Assembly: GCF_900102375.1 (NCBI RefSeq)
Contig: NZ_FNBO01000018.1
Location: 1 to 49,867, forward strand
DNA length: 49,867 nucleotides
Direction of reading: 5' to 3'
Source of the DNA: Halorubrum xinjiangense
GTDB lineage: Archaea; Halobacteriota; Halobacteria; Halobacteriales; Haloferacaceae
The notes under the pieces were generated by a model. That model did no database searches. It was not told the DNA's origin and saw only the letters and a program-made list of their open reading frames with translations. Numbering within the stretch: the first letter of the stretch is position 1; the number at the start of each line of letters is the position of its first letter. Positions 4,741 through 49,867 of this stretch are shown in pieces. Position numbers and translations under genes: made by a program.

Positions 4741-5320
4741 TCGCTTATAAATGGCGTTGCGGTGGCGCGTGCCTGCGAGGCCGCCTCGCGGCCGAGCCGC
4801 GAGGGACCGAAGGTCCCTCTGGAAGCCGGCGCGGAGCGCCGGCGACAGCACGCGCGAGGGAGTCGGCAGTCCGGAGCGAAGCGGAGGACCGCCGACGAGG
4901 CTGGGGAGGCGTGAGGCTGCGGTCCCGCGAGCGACCGGAGGGAGCGAGCGGGAGTACGGAAGACGCAGCGCCGAGCGAAGCGAGGCGACCGTCTTCCGGC
5001 GGTGCTGGGCGGGGCGGGACTCAAAGGGGCAGCCGTGAGGGCGCCGTAGGTGACGCAAGGACCGCAGGGAGTGAGCGGAGCGAGCGACTGAGGACCGCAG
5101 CGAGCGTACGGCGCCCTCACGGCTGGGGCTTTGGACGTGTTCGTCGCCGATCCGCTATCAGCCATTTATAAGCAATCGGCTGGGGCTTTGGACGTGTTCG
5201 TCGCCGATCCGACAGCATCGATTTATAAGCAAACAGCTCGGGATTCGGTGGTGTTCTCCGCCGGCCCACCGCCGGTCTCATATAAATAGCCGCCGGCAAC
5301 ACCCAGAGCCGGTTTATAAA
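4741..5320 (+). ncRNA. Dispersed structured element, copy 1 (candidate non-coding RNA or MITE)
   Basis: This element fills the gap between the convergent binding-protein and livF genes. TTATAAAT at 4745-4752 is followed by the box GGCGCGTGCC, pairing with GCACGCGC. Next come a hairpin whose arms GTCGGC (4862-4867) and GCCGAC (4891-4896) flank GGAGCGAAGCGG, the box GAGGCTGGGGAGGCGTGAGG, and the box GGGACTCAAAGGGGCAGCC (5016-5034). A long stem follows with perfect 19 bp arms at 5030-5048 and 5107-5125. The tail GGCTGGGGCTTTGGA is the start of a 57 bp unit repeated from 5178. No frame resembles a known protein. Three more copies occur in the window. Confidence 0.6.
5121..5320 (+). repeat. 57-bp tandem tail units ending in TATA-like sequence
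   Basis: Units starting at 5121 and 5178 share the first 33 of 57 bases (GGCTGGGGCTTTGGACGTGT, then TCGTCGCCGATCC) and both end in ATTTATAAGCAA. A diverged third unit follows from about 5235 with TATAAATAG, and a partial fourth ends TTTATAAATG. The same unit appears in the tails of the other copies of the element. Confidence 0.7.
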
Positions 5321-14831: not shown

Positions 14832-14902
14832 GCACCGGTAGTGTAGTGGTATCACGCAACCTTGCCATGGTTGCAACCCGAGTTCAAATCTCGGCCGGTG
14901 CA
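14832..14902 (+). tRNA. tRNA-Gly (anticodon GCC)
   Basis: 71 nt. Acceptor GCACCGG pairs with CCGGTGC, discriminator A. Anticodon arm around CTTGCCATG, T arm CCGAGTTCAAATCTCGG. CCA is not encoded. A 23 nt duplicate of its 3' end occurs 130 bp downstream. Confidence 0.93.
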
Positions 14903-15070
14903 TTTTCCGAGCGAAGCGAGGAAAATCGCCGAGAGAGATTTGAACGCTATCAGTCGCGCGCAGCGAACGGGCGAGCGAAGCGAGTCCGTGAGCGAGCACG
15001 TCTGATTCTGAGTTCAAATCTCGGCCGGTGCATTTCTCGAACACAGTGAGAGAAATCGCCGAGAGAGAGT
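14880..15070 (+). repeat. Tandem 130-bp duplication of the tRNA-Gly 3' end and its flank
   Basis: The last 23 nt of tRNA-Gly (14880-14902) recur exactly at 15010-15032. Both are followed by a hairpin and then TCGCCGAGAGAGA. The hairpins are TTTTCC...GGAAAA (14903-14925) and TTTCTC...GAGAAA (15033-15055). Their arms differ in both strands but still pair. This looks like att-type flanking of a vanished element or a diverged local duplication. The 3' copy lacks the rest of a tRNA. Confidence 0.75.
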
Positions 15071-15099
15071 TGTATGTGGCCCGTGAGCGCCATATCTAG

Positions 15100-15417
15100 T
15101 TTTATTTATAAACCGACGACGGTGCTACGGGAGACACCTCCAAAGCCCCAGCCGCGAGGACTCGCGCGGCTCGCTGCGCTCCTCGCTCGGTCGCTCACTT
15201 CGTTCGCTCCCTCGCTGTGGTGCTTGCGTCGCCGTGCTTCGTCCTCACGGCTTGCCCCTTTGAGTCCCGCCCCGCACCGCAACCGCACCTCACGCCTCCC
15301 CAACCTCGTCGCTGGCACCCTCCGCTTCGCTCCGGGAGCCAGCGACTCCCTCGCGCGTGCGATTCGCGCCCTTCGGGCGCTCATCGGCACGCGCCACCGC
15401 CTCGTTCATTTATAAAT
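15100..15417 (-). ncRNA. Dispersed structured element, copy 2
   Basis: Lies on the minus strand between tRNA-Gly and the PiT permease. ATTTATAAAT (15408-15417) is followed leftward by GGCGCGTGCC, GCACGCGCGAGGGAGTC, a hairpin with perfect arms GTCGCTGGC and GCCAGCGAC (15308-15346), GACGAGGTTGGGGAGGCGTG and GGGACTCAAAGGGGCAAGCC. A long imperfect stem (15149-15161 with 15241-15254) and the tail GGCTGGGGCTTTGGAGGTGT follow, closing near a second TTTATAAA (15105-15112). Apart from this element and the tRNA duplication, 15033-15563 shows no gene. Confidence 0.6.
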
Positions 15418-24027: not shown

Positions 24028-25665
24028 TCAGGCGAACGCGCGCTCGAACGCGCGGACCCCCTCGTCGGTGCCGGCGACGACGAGTTCGTCGCCGCGCTCG
24101 ATCCGGGTCTCCTGTCCCACGTCGGTGACGAGGTCGTCGCCGCGCTCGATCGCGATGACGGTACAGCCGGTGGTCTCGCGGACGGCCGCCTCGCCGACCG
24201 TGCGCCCGACCATCGCCGGCGCCTCGGTCCTGACGACCTCGACGTGCGTGTCGAGCGAGAGCACGTCCCGGTCCGTGAGCACGGCCGACGCCGACATCCG
24301 ACCGGTCACCGTCGAGAGGGAGAGCACGTAGTCGGCGCCGGCCCGGTGCATCTTCGGCACGCTCTCGGGGTCCGCGACCCGGGCGAGCAGCTCCACGTTC
24401 GGCGCCAGGTCGCGCACCACGAGCGTCGCGAACTCGGCGGTCGTGTCGTCCGGAAGCGCGAGGACGACGGTGCGCGCGTCCGCGACGCCGGCCTCCCGCA
24501 GCGTCTCCGGGTCCGTCGCGTCGCCGACCACGTCGATCGCCTCGCCCCCGTCGTGGTCGACGACGGTCACCGGGAGGTCGGCCGCTTCGAGGGCGTTCAC
24601 CACGGACTTCCCGACCTGTCCGTGCCCGATTACGACCGTCTCGCCGGCGCCGAACCGGCGGGCGGCGGAGTTGGTCAGGTCGACGAGCCGCTCCACCTGC
24701 CCCTCCGTCCCCGAGACGAGGAGGACGGTCCCGGCCGACAGGGTCGCGTCCGGCGGGGGCGCCGCCTCGAACGCCCCGTTGAACCACGCGCCGATCACGT
24801 CGACGCCGGTGCGCTCGCCGATCTGACTCCCGGCGAGCGTCGACCCGGCGAGGCCGCTCCCGTGGTGGATCGACACCTCCGCGATCCGCAGCGAGTCCCC
24901 GATGGCGACCGCCTCGTCGAGGTCGGTCCGCACCGCCGTCGTCACCTTCGAGGCGAGGCTCTCGCCGAGCAGCGACCGCGGGGAGAGCACCTCGTCCGCG
25001 CCGGCGAGGCGGTGGTACCGCTCGCGGCTCGGGTCCTCGACGACGCTTATCGCGCGGACGTCCGTCGAGAGCTCCTTCGCGGCGAGGACGATGCTCGCGT
25101 CCACGCGGTCGGAGACGTCGGTGACCAGGGCGCGCGCCGCCCCGAGGCGGGCGCTTTCGAGCCCAGCCGTCGTCTCGGGGTCGGCGCGGATCACCATGTG
25201 CCCCGCCTCGTACAGCGCCAGCGCCCGGTCGGGGTCGGGTTCGACGACCACGTACGGGACGTCCTCGGAGTCGAACTCGTCTAAGAGCGCGTCGGACCGC
25301 GTGGTGTCGGAGGCGACCACGACGTGGTCTTCAAGCTCCGTGTCCAGCGAGCGGGGGACGGTCGTCGAGAAGGCGGACTCGAGGAGCGGGGTCGCGACGA
25401 CGGGGAGCGCGCCGATGAGCAGCATCATCCCGACCAGGTCCATCACGGCGACGAACGCGTGCATCTGCTGGCTCTGCCACGACGACGAGTCGCCGCCGAA
25501 CCCCGTCGTCGTGAACATCTCGACCGCGAACTGGAACGACTCGATCAGGGTCCGGGGGTCGTTCTCGTAGACGCGCATTCCCCACCGGTAGGCGACGGCG
25601 GTGAACGTGAGCATGACGCCGAGGAAGACCGCGTACAACACGACTCGCCGCTTCCACGTGTCCAT
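24028..25665 (-). CDS. Potassium channel with two RCK (TrkA-N/TrkA-C) modules
   Basis: A 545-residue protein. Two membrane helices (about residues 8-28 and 71-95) flank a pore with selectivity-filter-like TTTGFGGD (52-59). Two RCK modules follow. The first Rossmann domain begins VVASDTTRSDALLDEF. The second begins TVVIGHGQVGKSVVNALEAA, with TrkA-C domains after each. GHGQVG is a nucleotide-binding loop. This is the architecture of MthK-like or Kch-like potassium channels, here with a duplicated RCK. The start at 25665 precedes the first helix, and a TTTTTGTAC box lies about 25 bp upstream. Confidence 0.85.
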   Translation of the reverse strand: MDTWKRRVVLYAVFLGVMLTFTAVAYRWGMRVYENDPRTLIESFQFAVEMFTTTGFGGDSSSWQSQQMHAFVAVMDLVGMMLLIGALPVVATPLLESAFSTTVPRSLDTELEDHVVVASDTTRSDALLDEFDSEDVPYVVVEPDPDRALALYEAGHMVIRADPETTAGLESARLGAARALVTDVSDRVDASIVLAAKELSTDVRAISVVEDPSRERYHRLAGADEVLSPRSLLGESLASKVTTAVRTDLDEAVAIGDSLRIAEVSIHHGSGLAGSTLAGSQIGERTGVDVIGAWFNGAFEAAPPPDATLSAGTVLLVSGTEGQVERLVDLTNSAARRFGAGETVVIGHGQVGKSVVNALEAADLPVTVVDHDGGEAIDVVGDATDPETLREAGVADARTVVLALPDDTTAEFATLVVRDLAPNVELLARVADPESVPKMHRAGADYVLSLSTVTGRMSASAVLTDRDVLSLDTHVEVVRTEAPAMVGRTVGEAAVRETTGCTVIAIERGDDLVTDVGQETRIERGDELVVAGTDEGVRAFERAFA

Positions 25666-33935: not shown

Positions 33936-34073
33936 ATACGTGTTCGGTACGTGATTGAGCGGTTTAGCTTCGGCGGGTACGGTCGAATACGTGGGGTATG
34001 ATGACGTGGAACTATGTTGGTGTGGCGGTAGCGAGGTCGCAGTCGACCCGGAGGTGGATCTTGTCGCGGTGAA

Positions 34074-34206
34074 CACCTCCAAAGCCCCAGCCGCTCGTTT
34101 ATAAATAGCCGACTGGGGATCGACAGAGAACACCTCCGAAGTCTCAGCCGCTTGTTTATAAATAAGTCACCGAGTATCGACCGCGAACGGCTCCAAAGCC
34201 CCAGCC
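34074..34206 (-). repeat. 57-bp tandem tail units of copy 3
   Basis: Reading the minus strand, two complete 57 bp units begin GGCTGGGGCTTTGGAG and GGCTGAGACTTCGGAGGTGT. Both contain GGTCGAT or GTCGAT near the middle and end in TATTTATAAAC(A/G)AGC. A third begins GGCTGGGGCTTTGGAGGTGT at 34097. Unit length is exactly conserved. Confidence 0.75.
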
Positions 34207-34459
34207 GGGAGGTGGGCGCACGCTCGCTGCGCTCCTCACTCGGTCGCTCACTGCGTTCGCTCCCTCGTTGCGGTGCTTACGTCGCCTGCGCCCACCTCCC
34301 GGCTGCCCCTTTGAGTCCCACCCCGCACAGCCCCGCACCCCACGCCTCCCCAGCCTCGTCAGTCGCCTCCGCTTCGCTCCGGCGACTGACTCCCTCGCGC
34401 GTGCTCCTCGCGCCCTCCAGGCGCTCGGAGGCACGCGCCGCCGCATCTCATTTATAAAT
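34074..34459 (-). ncRNA. Dispersed structured element, copy 3
   Basis: Minus strand, between the MOT1-type transporter and tfs. ATTTATAAAT (34450-34459) is followed by GGCGGCGCGTGCC and GCACGCGCGAGGGAGTC. A hairpin with perfect arms GTCAGTCGCC and GGCGACTGAC (34358-34390) comes next, then GACGAGGCTGGGGAGGCGTG and GGGACTCAAAGGGGCAGCC. The long stem has perfect 19 bp arms (34202-34220 and 34287-34305). Two full 57 bp tail units and a partial third run toward tfs. No gene is visible in 33936-34479. Confidence 0.62.
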
Positions 34460-45835: not shown

Positions 45836-46130
45836 TAAAAGGGGCGGCGCGGTGGCGCGTGCCGGCGAGGCCGCCCCGCGGCCGAGCCGCACGCGCGAGG
45901 GAGTCGCTGGCGGCGCCAGCCGCCTGCGACGAGGCTGGGGAGGCGTGAGGCTACGATGCGGAGCGGGGTGGGACTCAAAGGGGCAGTCGCGAGGGCGAAG
46001 CACGGCGACGCAAGCACCGCAGTGAGTGAGCGAAGCGAACGAGCGAGGAGCACAGCGAGCCGCGCGAGTCCTCGCGACTGGGGCTTTGGAGGTGTTCGTC
46101 GTCGATCCGCTGTCGATCATTTATAAAAGA
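45836..46130 (+). ncRNA. Dispersed structured element, copy 4
   Basis: Plus strand, between the amidohydrolase start and the CBS gene end. GGTGGCGCGTGCC (45851-45863) and GCACGCGCGAGGGAGTC are followed by a hairpin with outer arms GTCGC (45903-45907) and GCGAC (45926-45930), then GACGAGGCTGGGGAGGCGTG and GGGACTCAAAGGGGCAGTC. The long stem has outer arms CAGTCGCGAGG (45984-45994) and CCTCGCGACTG (46070-46080). Tail GGGGCTTTGGAGGTGTTCGT ends at ATTTATAAAA. A weaker CTAAAAGG stands where other copies have TTATAAATG; TATATAAA lies further up at 45801. No gene in 45675-46198. Confidence 0.6.
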
Positions 46131-46198
46131 GCGGTCGAGACTGTCGGCATCCCACGGTCAACCTCTTTTAAATAGCCACCAAGTCGTTCTGATTCGAC

Positions 46199-49562: not shown

Positions 49563-49867
49563 AAGCCAACCAACAGTATTCAACCGCCGTCAATGGCATA
49601 GACGGGGTTCCAACGCAGTCTTTAAGCCGTCCAACCGTGATAGTATACATAGATGGTAAAGAGTACCCGTCACGCGAAATACGAACTCTACTACCACATA
49701 GTGTTTGTACCGAAATATCGGCGTTCGCACCTGACGGGGGAGACGAAGGAACGTCTCGAAACCATCTTCGCGGAAATCTGTGAGGACAAGGGCCTCGAAC
49801 TGGTCGAGTGCGAAGTCATGCCCGATCACGTACACCTGTTCATCGGAAGTCCACCCAAGAACGCCCC
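49521..49867 (+). mobile_element. IS200/IS605-type element carrying tnpA, cut by the window edge
   Basis: The element starts 3' of TTAC, has the hairpin left end, a spacer of about 90 bp, and tnpA. It has interrupted the gene at 49244. Its right end, and any tnpB, lie beyond the window. The orientation is opposite to that of the element at the left edge, so the two left ends face inward across the window. Confidence 0.8.
49653..49867 (+). CDS. tnpA: IS200/IS605 TnpA transposase, N-terminal part (runs off the window)
   Basis: 71 residues are visible: [40 protein letters not shown], and [17 protein letters not shown]. This is the Y1 HUH single-strand transposase. The metal-binding His-x-His is HVH, while the catalytic Tyr lies beyond the edge. 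It cuts single-stranded DNA at the hairpin ends next to a short target (TTAC here). The frame is intact as far as seen. GTGATAGTATACAT before the ATG may hold the promoter. Confidence 0.92.

Follow-up and report, generated by a model that had tools for sequence, protein, structure and literature searches.

The 57-bp unit repeated in the analysed Halorubrum xinjiangense sequence (a stretch of 49,867 nt, referred to as the window) is best explained, with a probability of about 0.72, as the 3′-terminal module of a dispersed, structured and non-coding element, the extra units being duplicates produced through their heads. Together they form the 3′ tail of an intergenic element that occurs more than 150 times in this genome. 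The first 14–15 bases of the unit, its head, make up the 3′ arm of the element's closing stem, and unit 1 is the only pairing partner of the element, as indicated by core–head covariation and extended complementarity that both fit unit 1.

The head GGCTGGGGCTTTGGA was found exactly at 5121 and 5178 on the plus strand and at 15139, 34078, and 34192 on the minus strand, with one mismatch at 46076 (+) and with three mismatches at 34135 (−). A further three-mismatch match at 25146 lies outside every recognised copy. These eight matches compare with a mean of 0.94 in shuffled sequences, none of which reached eight in 100 trials, and Tandem Repeats Finder reported period 57 at 5120–5232 (score 191) and at 34071–34207 (score 174). 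The 57-bp units that the initial annotation described in the tails of copies 1 and 3 are thus real, and the number of units it assigned to each of the four copies was also borne out. Copy 1 (plus strand) is directly preceded by a TATA-like box, CTTATAAATG, at 4744–4753. Its structured part (4759–5120), supported by folding and covariation in 51 other copies, is enlarged by extra hairpins and ends in the closing stem, whose 5′ arm is contained in the conserved core GGGACTCAAAGGGGCAGCCGT at 5016–5036; the first 17 bases of this core recur genome-wide. In unit 1 (5121–5177), the closing-stem 3′ arm occupies 5121–5135, as determined by pairing across the set of copies, and the tail that follows has TTTATAA at 5165–5171. 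Unit 2 (5178–5234), a spare copy recognised by its head match and by Tandem Repeats Finder, has TTTATAA at 5222–5228, and the decayed unit 3 (5235–5291) was read from the sequence by a head with five mismatches and ATATAAA at 5280. The tail of copy 3 (34066–34206, minus strand) contains two full units, 34206–34150 and 34149–34093, and a partial one whose head occupies 34092–34078; the three heads begin at 34206, 34149, and 34092, and the TATA end is absent from the last. Head matches placed a single unit in copy 2 (15097–15153, minus strand) and a single good unit in copy 4 (46076–46132, plus strand), the latter with TTTATAA at 46120–46126.

Two of the window copies have additional features. 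At 4795–4860, copy 1 has an additional module inside the stems, composed of two consecutive hairpins that are almost perfect, for example GAGGGACCGAAGGTCCCTC-TGGA-AGCCGGCGC...GCGCCGGCGA; the module is also found at loci L004, L011, and L016 and resembles double-hairpin elements. Beside copy 2 (region 14850–15040) lie a tRNA gene at 14832–14902 (+) and then a second, partial copy of the 3′ part of the tRNA, and TGCACCGGCCGAGATTTGAACTC occurs there twice on the minus strand, resembling an attachment-site remnant.

The 3.26-Mb genome that carries the window element contains 165 matches to the core GGGACTCAAAGGGGCAG at up to three mismatches, as opposed to five for the reversed pattern, and 303 matches to the head at up to two mismatches, as opposed to 28 for its reversed pattern. 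From 100 listed places among the 165 core matches, together with genome loci and the window, 120 core matches were assembled, a few of them chance matches; nine additional loci were examined and excluded from the counts. A unit chain was present in 116 copies, 72 of which passed a filter for simple architecture, and 51 of these formed the structural alignment. In the 72 simple copies, the length of the structured part, counted with 22 nt of unit 1, was 241–317 nt, and enlarged copies were longer. The dispersal of the element suggests past spread. In a class-wide sample, the core was found at up to one mismatch in all 15 members of the genus, with 6 to 164 matches each, and in six of 130 genomes outside the genus, with one or two matches; those listed read GGGACTGAAAGGGGCAG. 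A sister 15-mer, GGGACTGAAAGGGGC, was present without mismatch in 75 of the 145 haloarchaeal genomes sampled and in 35 of 58 genera, and the reversed control was found in none. This 15-mer begins a similar hairpin and often occurs as inverted pairs approximately 40–50 bp apart. With one mismatch allowed and some loci counted twice, GGGGCTTTC lay downstream in 34 of 35 GGGACTGAAAGGGGC occurrences, so that outside the genus GAAAG faces CTTTC. Among all loci read, L118 and L162, L111 and L222, and L112 and L223 are each one locus under two labels. A second copy at a unit-like distance was found in one of the 35; tandem tails therefore look like a Halorubrum trait, and relatives elsewhere appear to be single-tailed. 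Within the genus, two exact heads 42–72 bp apart were present in 42 of 52 genomes (control, 0), and in public genomes at least 109 loci showed two exact heads, the 80 that were listed belonging to Halorubrum or to the uncultured archaeon A07HR67.

Inverted hairpin pairs in other haloarchaeal genera were observed at L110–L112, L212, L221–L223, L226, and L228; we regard them as reminiscent of REP/BIME pairs. Plasmid pHAR01 of Halorubrum salinarum (L357) carries a copy of the element without the long inner stem, in which the core and the tail head are nearly fused. When the whole window was compared with Rfam at the gathering score, two tRNAs alone were found and none of the element copies matched, and copy 4 had no match at E values up to 5. 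For three related loci, a tRNA alone exceeded the gathering score, and weaker matches stayed below threshold (e.g., mir-4433, 33.2 bits against a gathering score of 77). No account of the element was recognised in the titles and abstract openings that literature searches of open-licence papers gave. The element is a covarying, multi-copy structure that extends across many haloarchaeal genera and has no match in Rfam.

The pairing of unit 1 with the core was evident from covariation. Counts for core C/T against head G/A were 66/1/19/25 for unit 1 (Fisher p = 6e-12), whereas the association was weak for unit 2 (p = 0.02), and the extended stem was complementary at a mean of 11.2 of 12 positions for unit 1 and 6.2 for unit 2. 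The tie of the units to the upstream structured part is therefore tight, since the head of unit 1 covaries with the core. In the alignment of 51 copies, 29 of the 46 modelled pairs changed on both sides and 97.7% of the pairing cells were compatible with pairing, compared to 83.2% in shuffles and 28–46% when the strands were slid; neither value was reached by any of 500 shuffles. The 46-pair structure was partly set by hand. RNAalifold returned a consensus of 57 pairs, 30 of them with double changes, in which the CTTTG strand was joined to the GAGGCT region; this helix was replaced by CAAAG/CTTTG because of compensatory changes, and in three of the 51 copies the CAAAG/CTTTG helix showed replacement of A-U by G-C on both sides. 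Single copies folded modestly better than their shuffles (z = −3.9, with 0 of 100 shuffles as good; z = −2.1, with 5 of 200). G-U cells outnumbered A-C cells (105 to 19, or 44 to 11 when four pairs were left out), and on this basis the structure is probably that of an RNA of this strand.

Unit length was determined from the head-to-head distances in the 120 core matches. With heads of up to five mismatches, 57 bp occurred 134 times, 51 bp nine times, and 54 bp three times; there were also eight distances of 6 bp (overlapping secondary matches) and seven of 56 bp (mostly with five-mismatch heads), the remaining distances being represented by one or two cases each. When both heads had at most two mismatches, 57 bp was found 99 times, 51 bp six times, 54 bp three times, and 48 and 60 bp once each. 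Unit length is thus conserved at other loci, 57 bp dominating genome-wide, yet other lengths occur. All 110 of the latter spacings, the 57s included, are divisible by three, as are 37 of the 41 non-57 per-array spacings at the 109 loci covered in the genus. Some arrays repeat a period of their own (e.g., 51 bp four times or 54 bp four times), and others are mixed (54, 54, 57, 57 at L072; 57, 57, 48, 57 at L011). The length is 57 bp at most loci despite tails that are only approximately 56–61% identical between copies. The exact length of the units in spite of base changes had been taken as a sign of a spacing constraint. Within an array this does not follow, because exchange between heads duplicates the length together with the unit; across loci some constraint on length remains. 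Plain drift predicts neither the predominance of 57 bp nor the multiples of three among the other lengths, and these points, like the mixed arrays, count against the duplication model.

The distribution of identity along the arrays supports the duplication model. Tails of adjacent inner units were 0.868 identical (n = 50 pairs), whereas the penultimate and last units were 0.566 identical (n = 76 pairs), close to the 0.564 found between units of different arrays. Mean head mismatches were 0.6–0.8 in non-last units, 0.7 in single units, and 1.2–2.2 in the last units of arrays, where "last" denotes the last recognised unit and is biased towards decay. Each unit would comprise a head of 14–15 bases, in unit 1 the closing-stem 3′ arm, and a tail of approximately 42 bases that mostly ends in a TATA-like box, and unequal exchange or replication slippage between heads would duplicate unit 1. 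The last tail, with no head on its far side, could not be duplicated and would drift, which explains why the inner units are alike and the last one is odd. Duplication between heads would also give the shared length in most arrays and the variation in unit number between species. Two is the most frequent number of heads (50 of 116 copies), and they are usually spaced by 57 bp. At the locus orthologous to copy 3, next to a gene that we take to encode transcription factor S, 15 of 18 readable genomes had one to four units spaced 57, 54, or 51 bp apart, so that unit counts at homologous loci do vary among relatives. Two of the other genomes lacked the element and one retained remnants, with flanks too diverged for the borders to be placed. 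Minisatellite-like duplication of the module that contains the 3′ arm is the best interpretation of the tail arrays, and the additional units are most likely a side effect of this process, with no separate function. A candidate conserved 3′ terminal motif, GACARCAACACC, was discarded since it was present in only six of 118 tails.

Other functions of the extra units were considered. The spare heads might serve as alternative 3′ arms, with the number of units tuning the 3′ end of a read-through RNA. Inner heads are near the consensus (0.6–0.8 mismatches) and retain the positions complementary to CAAAG and AGCC in the core strand, as such a role would have it, but it is the short common part alone that pairs, the extended stem matching unit 1 and no later unit (11.2 as opposed to 6.2 of 12 positions); we give this proposal little credence. 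A peptide repeat is more doubtful still and strikes us as highly improbable, even though 57 equals 3 × 19 (a unit could be read as, e.g., GCT GGG GCT TTG GAG GTG TTC...) and nearly all spacings are divisible by three. Among 153 first units, stops were fewer than in column shuffles in forward frame 1 (29 vs. 41.2) and frame 2 (24 vs. 35.4), and the synonymous fraction in forward frame 2 was 0.357 against an expected 0.287. Nevertheless, stops break 19% of first units in frame 1 and 16% in frame 2, the shortage is alike in the two frames and could be caused by mixing of subtypes in the shuffles, the synonymous fraction of forward frame 1 is below expectation (0.278 vs. 0.308), and a reverse frame filled with stops shows the same synonymous excess (0.367 vs. 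0.303). Counted from the core, moreover, unit 1 occurs in each of the three frames (43, 37, and 36 copies). With signals so mixed, in that stops interrupt both of the most open frames and the excess appears in a reverse frame too, a coding repeat is unsupported.

The TATA-like end of the unit, which the initial annotation had proposed as a transcription start or stop in each unit, is conserved as such. Its position is fixed in 93 of the 116 first units; of the 34 copies with a single unit, 28 have TATAA 30–57 nt past the head. Both observations would suit tandem promoters in which every TTTATAA is a TATA box and every unit adds one more start, as would the class I repeats of halovirus HF2, 58 bp long, which are proven promoters with the TATA starting at −26 (PMC8707807). 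Against this stands the distribution of TTATAA among distinct units of the genus, where it occurred in 66 of 100 units of 57 bp, two of seven of 51 bp, and none of 26 of 54 bp; among the matches listed, it was present in one of 37 spacings of 54 bp. The BRE consensus is an A-rich stretch before the TATA box, and a BRE-like stretch of this kind is absent before the box in the unit consensus. According to rough gene calling for the 116 copies, in which at least one window copy was misread and one side was uncalled in 17, the gene downstream of the tail was in the opposite orientation in 64 cases, in the same orientation in 44, and uncalled in eight, and the tail of copy 1 is directed at a gene on the minus strand, facing its 3′ end. 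On the same calling, neighbour genes were convergent in 35 and divergent in 14 of the 116 copies, as expected if insertions into promoter regions are lost. Gene orientation, as called heuristically, argues against promoters of neighbouring genes, and starts or stops contributed by each unit are unsupported and, as tandem promoters, improbable. The box before the 5′ end of the element appears more promising as a promoter than those in the tails: a [TC]TATAA box lay 12–20 nt upstream of this end in 55 of 103 copies (13 of the 116 were dropped because the 5′ end was unrecognisable), the next 100 bp upstream contained only 13 boxes across all 103 copies, and a start at the HF2 distance, where the promoter TATA begins at −26 (PMC8707807), would land near helix 1.

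TATA-like boxes at both ends could mean more than common descent, and they are one argument for regarding the units as the ends of a non-autonomous mobile element, similar to PATE, REP, or MITE, with TTTATAA at both ends as the motif that an HUH transposase (IS200/IS605) targets or cleaves. The element is too short to encode a transposase itself (241–317 nt in simple copies). The 165 dispersed core matches, the orthologous sites both occupied and empty, and the six Y1 transposase matches in the genome, four of them full-length, are consistent with mobility, as are the 52-bp end-only forms among the PATEs of Haloquadratum (PMC3119063). In contrast, four Y1 loci resembled the element only weakly and over short stretches (best E value, 0.037 over 29 bp), a single core-like match at up to three mismatches lay in L353, and the core was present in three of 15 TnpB loci examined (25 TnpB matches in all), where 2.2 were expected by density. 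Mobility of this type is accordingly possible but rather unlikely. The two boxes of one copy were no more alike than boxes across copies (40 pairs, p = 0.24), and target-site duplication by paired TATA boxes gained no support, for want of a copy-specific likeness. A retroposon origin was set aside because a search of the genome for reverse transcriptase (RVT_1) gave no match, and a halovirus origin because viral contigs contained no exact core and the two viral matches to the tandem pattern were unrelated low-complexity sequence. Seven of 72,556 plasmid records matched the element, a weak test because haloarchaea account for the minority of these records. A Y1 (IS200-type) transposase domain was also noted at 49677–49862, truncated by the end of the window and contig, and a Y1 fragment of equal score stands at the beginning of contig C5 of this genome.

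Several described systems resemble the duplicated 3′ module and its element in part. The HF2 class I repeats are likewise haloarchaeal and intergenic, 58 bp long and provided with an AT-rich box; they are dispersed promoters, whereas the units here are tandem, joined to a folded element, and lack the box in some subtypes, and none of the motifs quoted from that report is visible in the unit consensus (PMC8707807). The PATEs of Haloquadratum and its small mobile repeats are also short, non-coding, dispersed, palindromic, and devoid of transposase, but no ends in common with IS605-type genes were found for the present element at the Y1 and TnpB loci examined, and tandem repeats in the tail are not described in the portions of the PATE report drawn on (PMC3119063). 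STAR elements of Staphylococcus share the interspersed intergenic direct repeats, and a covarying structured part is not mentioned in the account of them used here. The haloarchaeal IS200/IS605 omega-RNA families RF02656 and RF02657 are structured RNAs as well (PMC12558985); the window element, in contrast, has no Rfam match and showed no enrichment at the TnpB loci examined.

With these results, what began as a question about a promoter repeat becomes one about a large element for which no description was found, and we consider the element more interesting than its tandem tails. The tails offer a natural marker of the VNTR type and illustrate cleanly how a minisatellite-like array grows next to a strong hairpin. 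A tentative reading, which we place below even odds, is that the element represents a class-wide haloarchaeal family of structured RNAs that exceeds 100 copies per genome in some Halorubrum and has gained there a 5′ box and a variable number of 3′-arm copies. If this is true, many copies might be transcribed from a 5′ box of their own at a fixed distance, and the fast-changing number of units could alter the 3′ end of the RNA.
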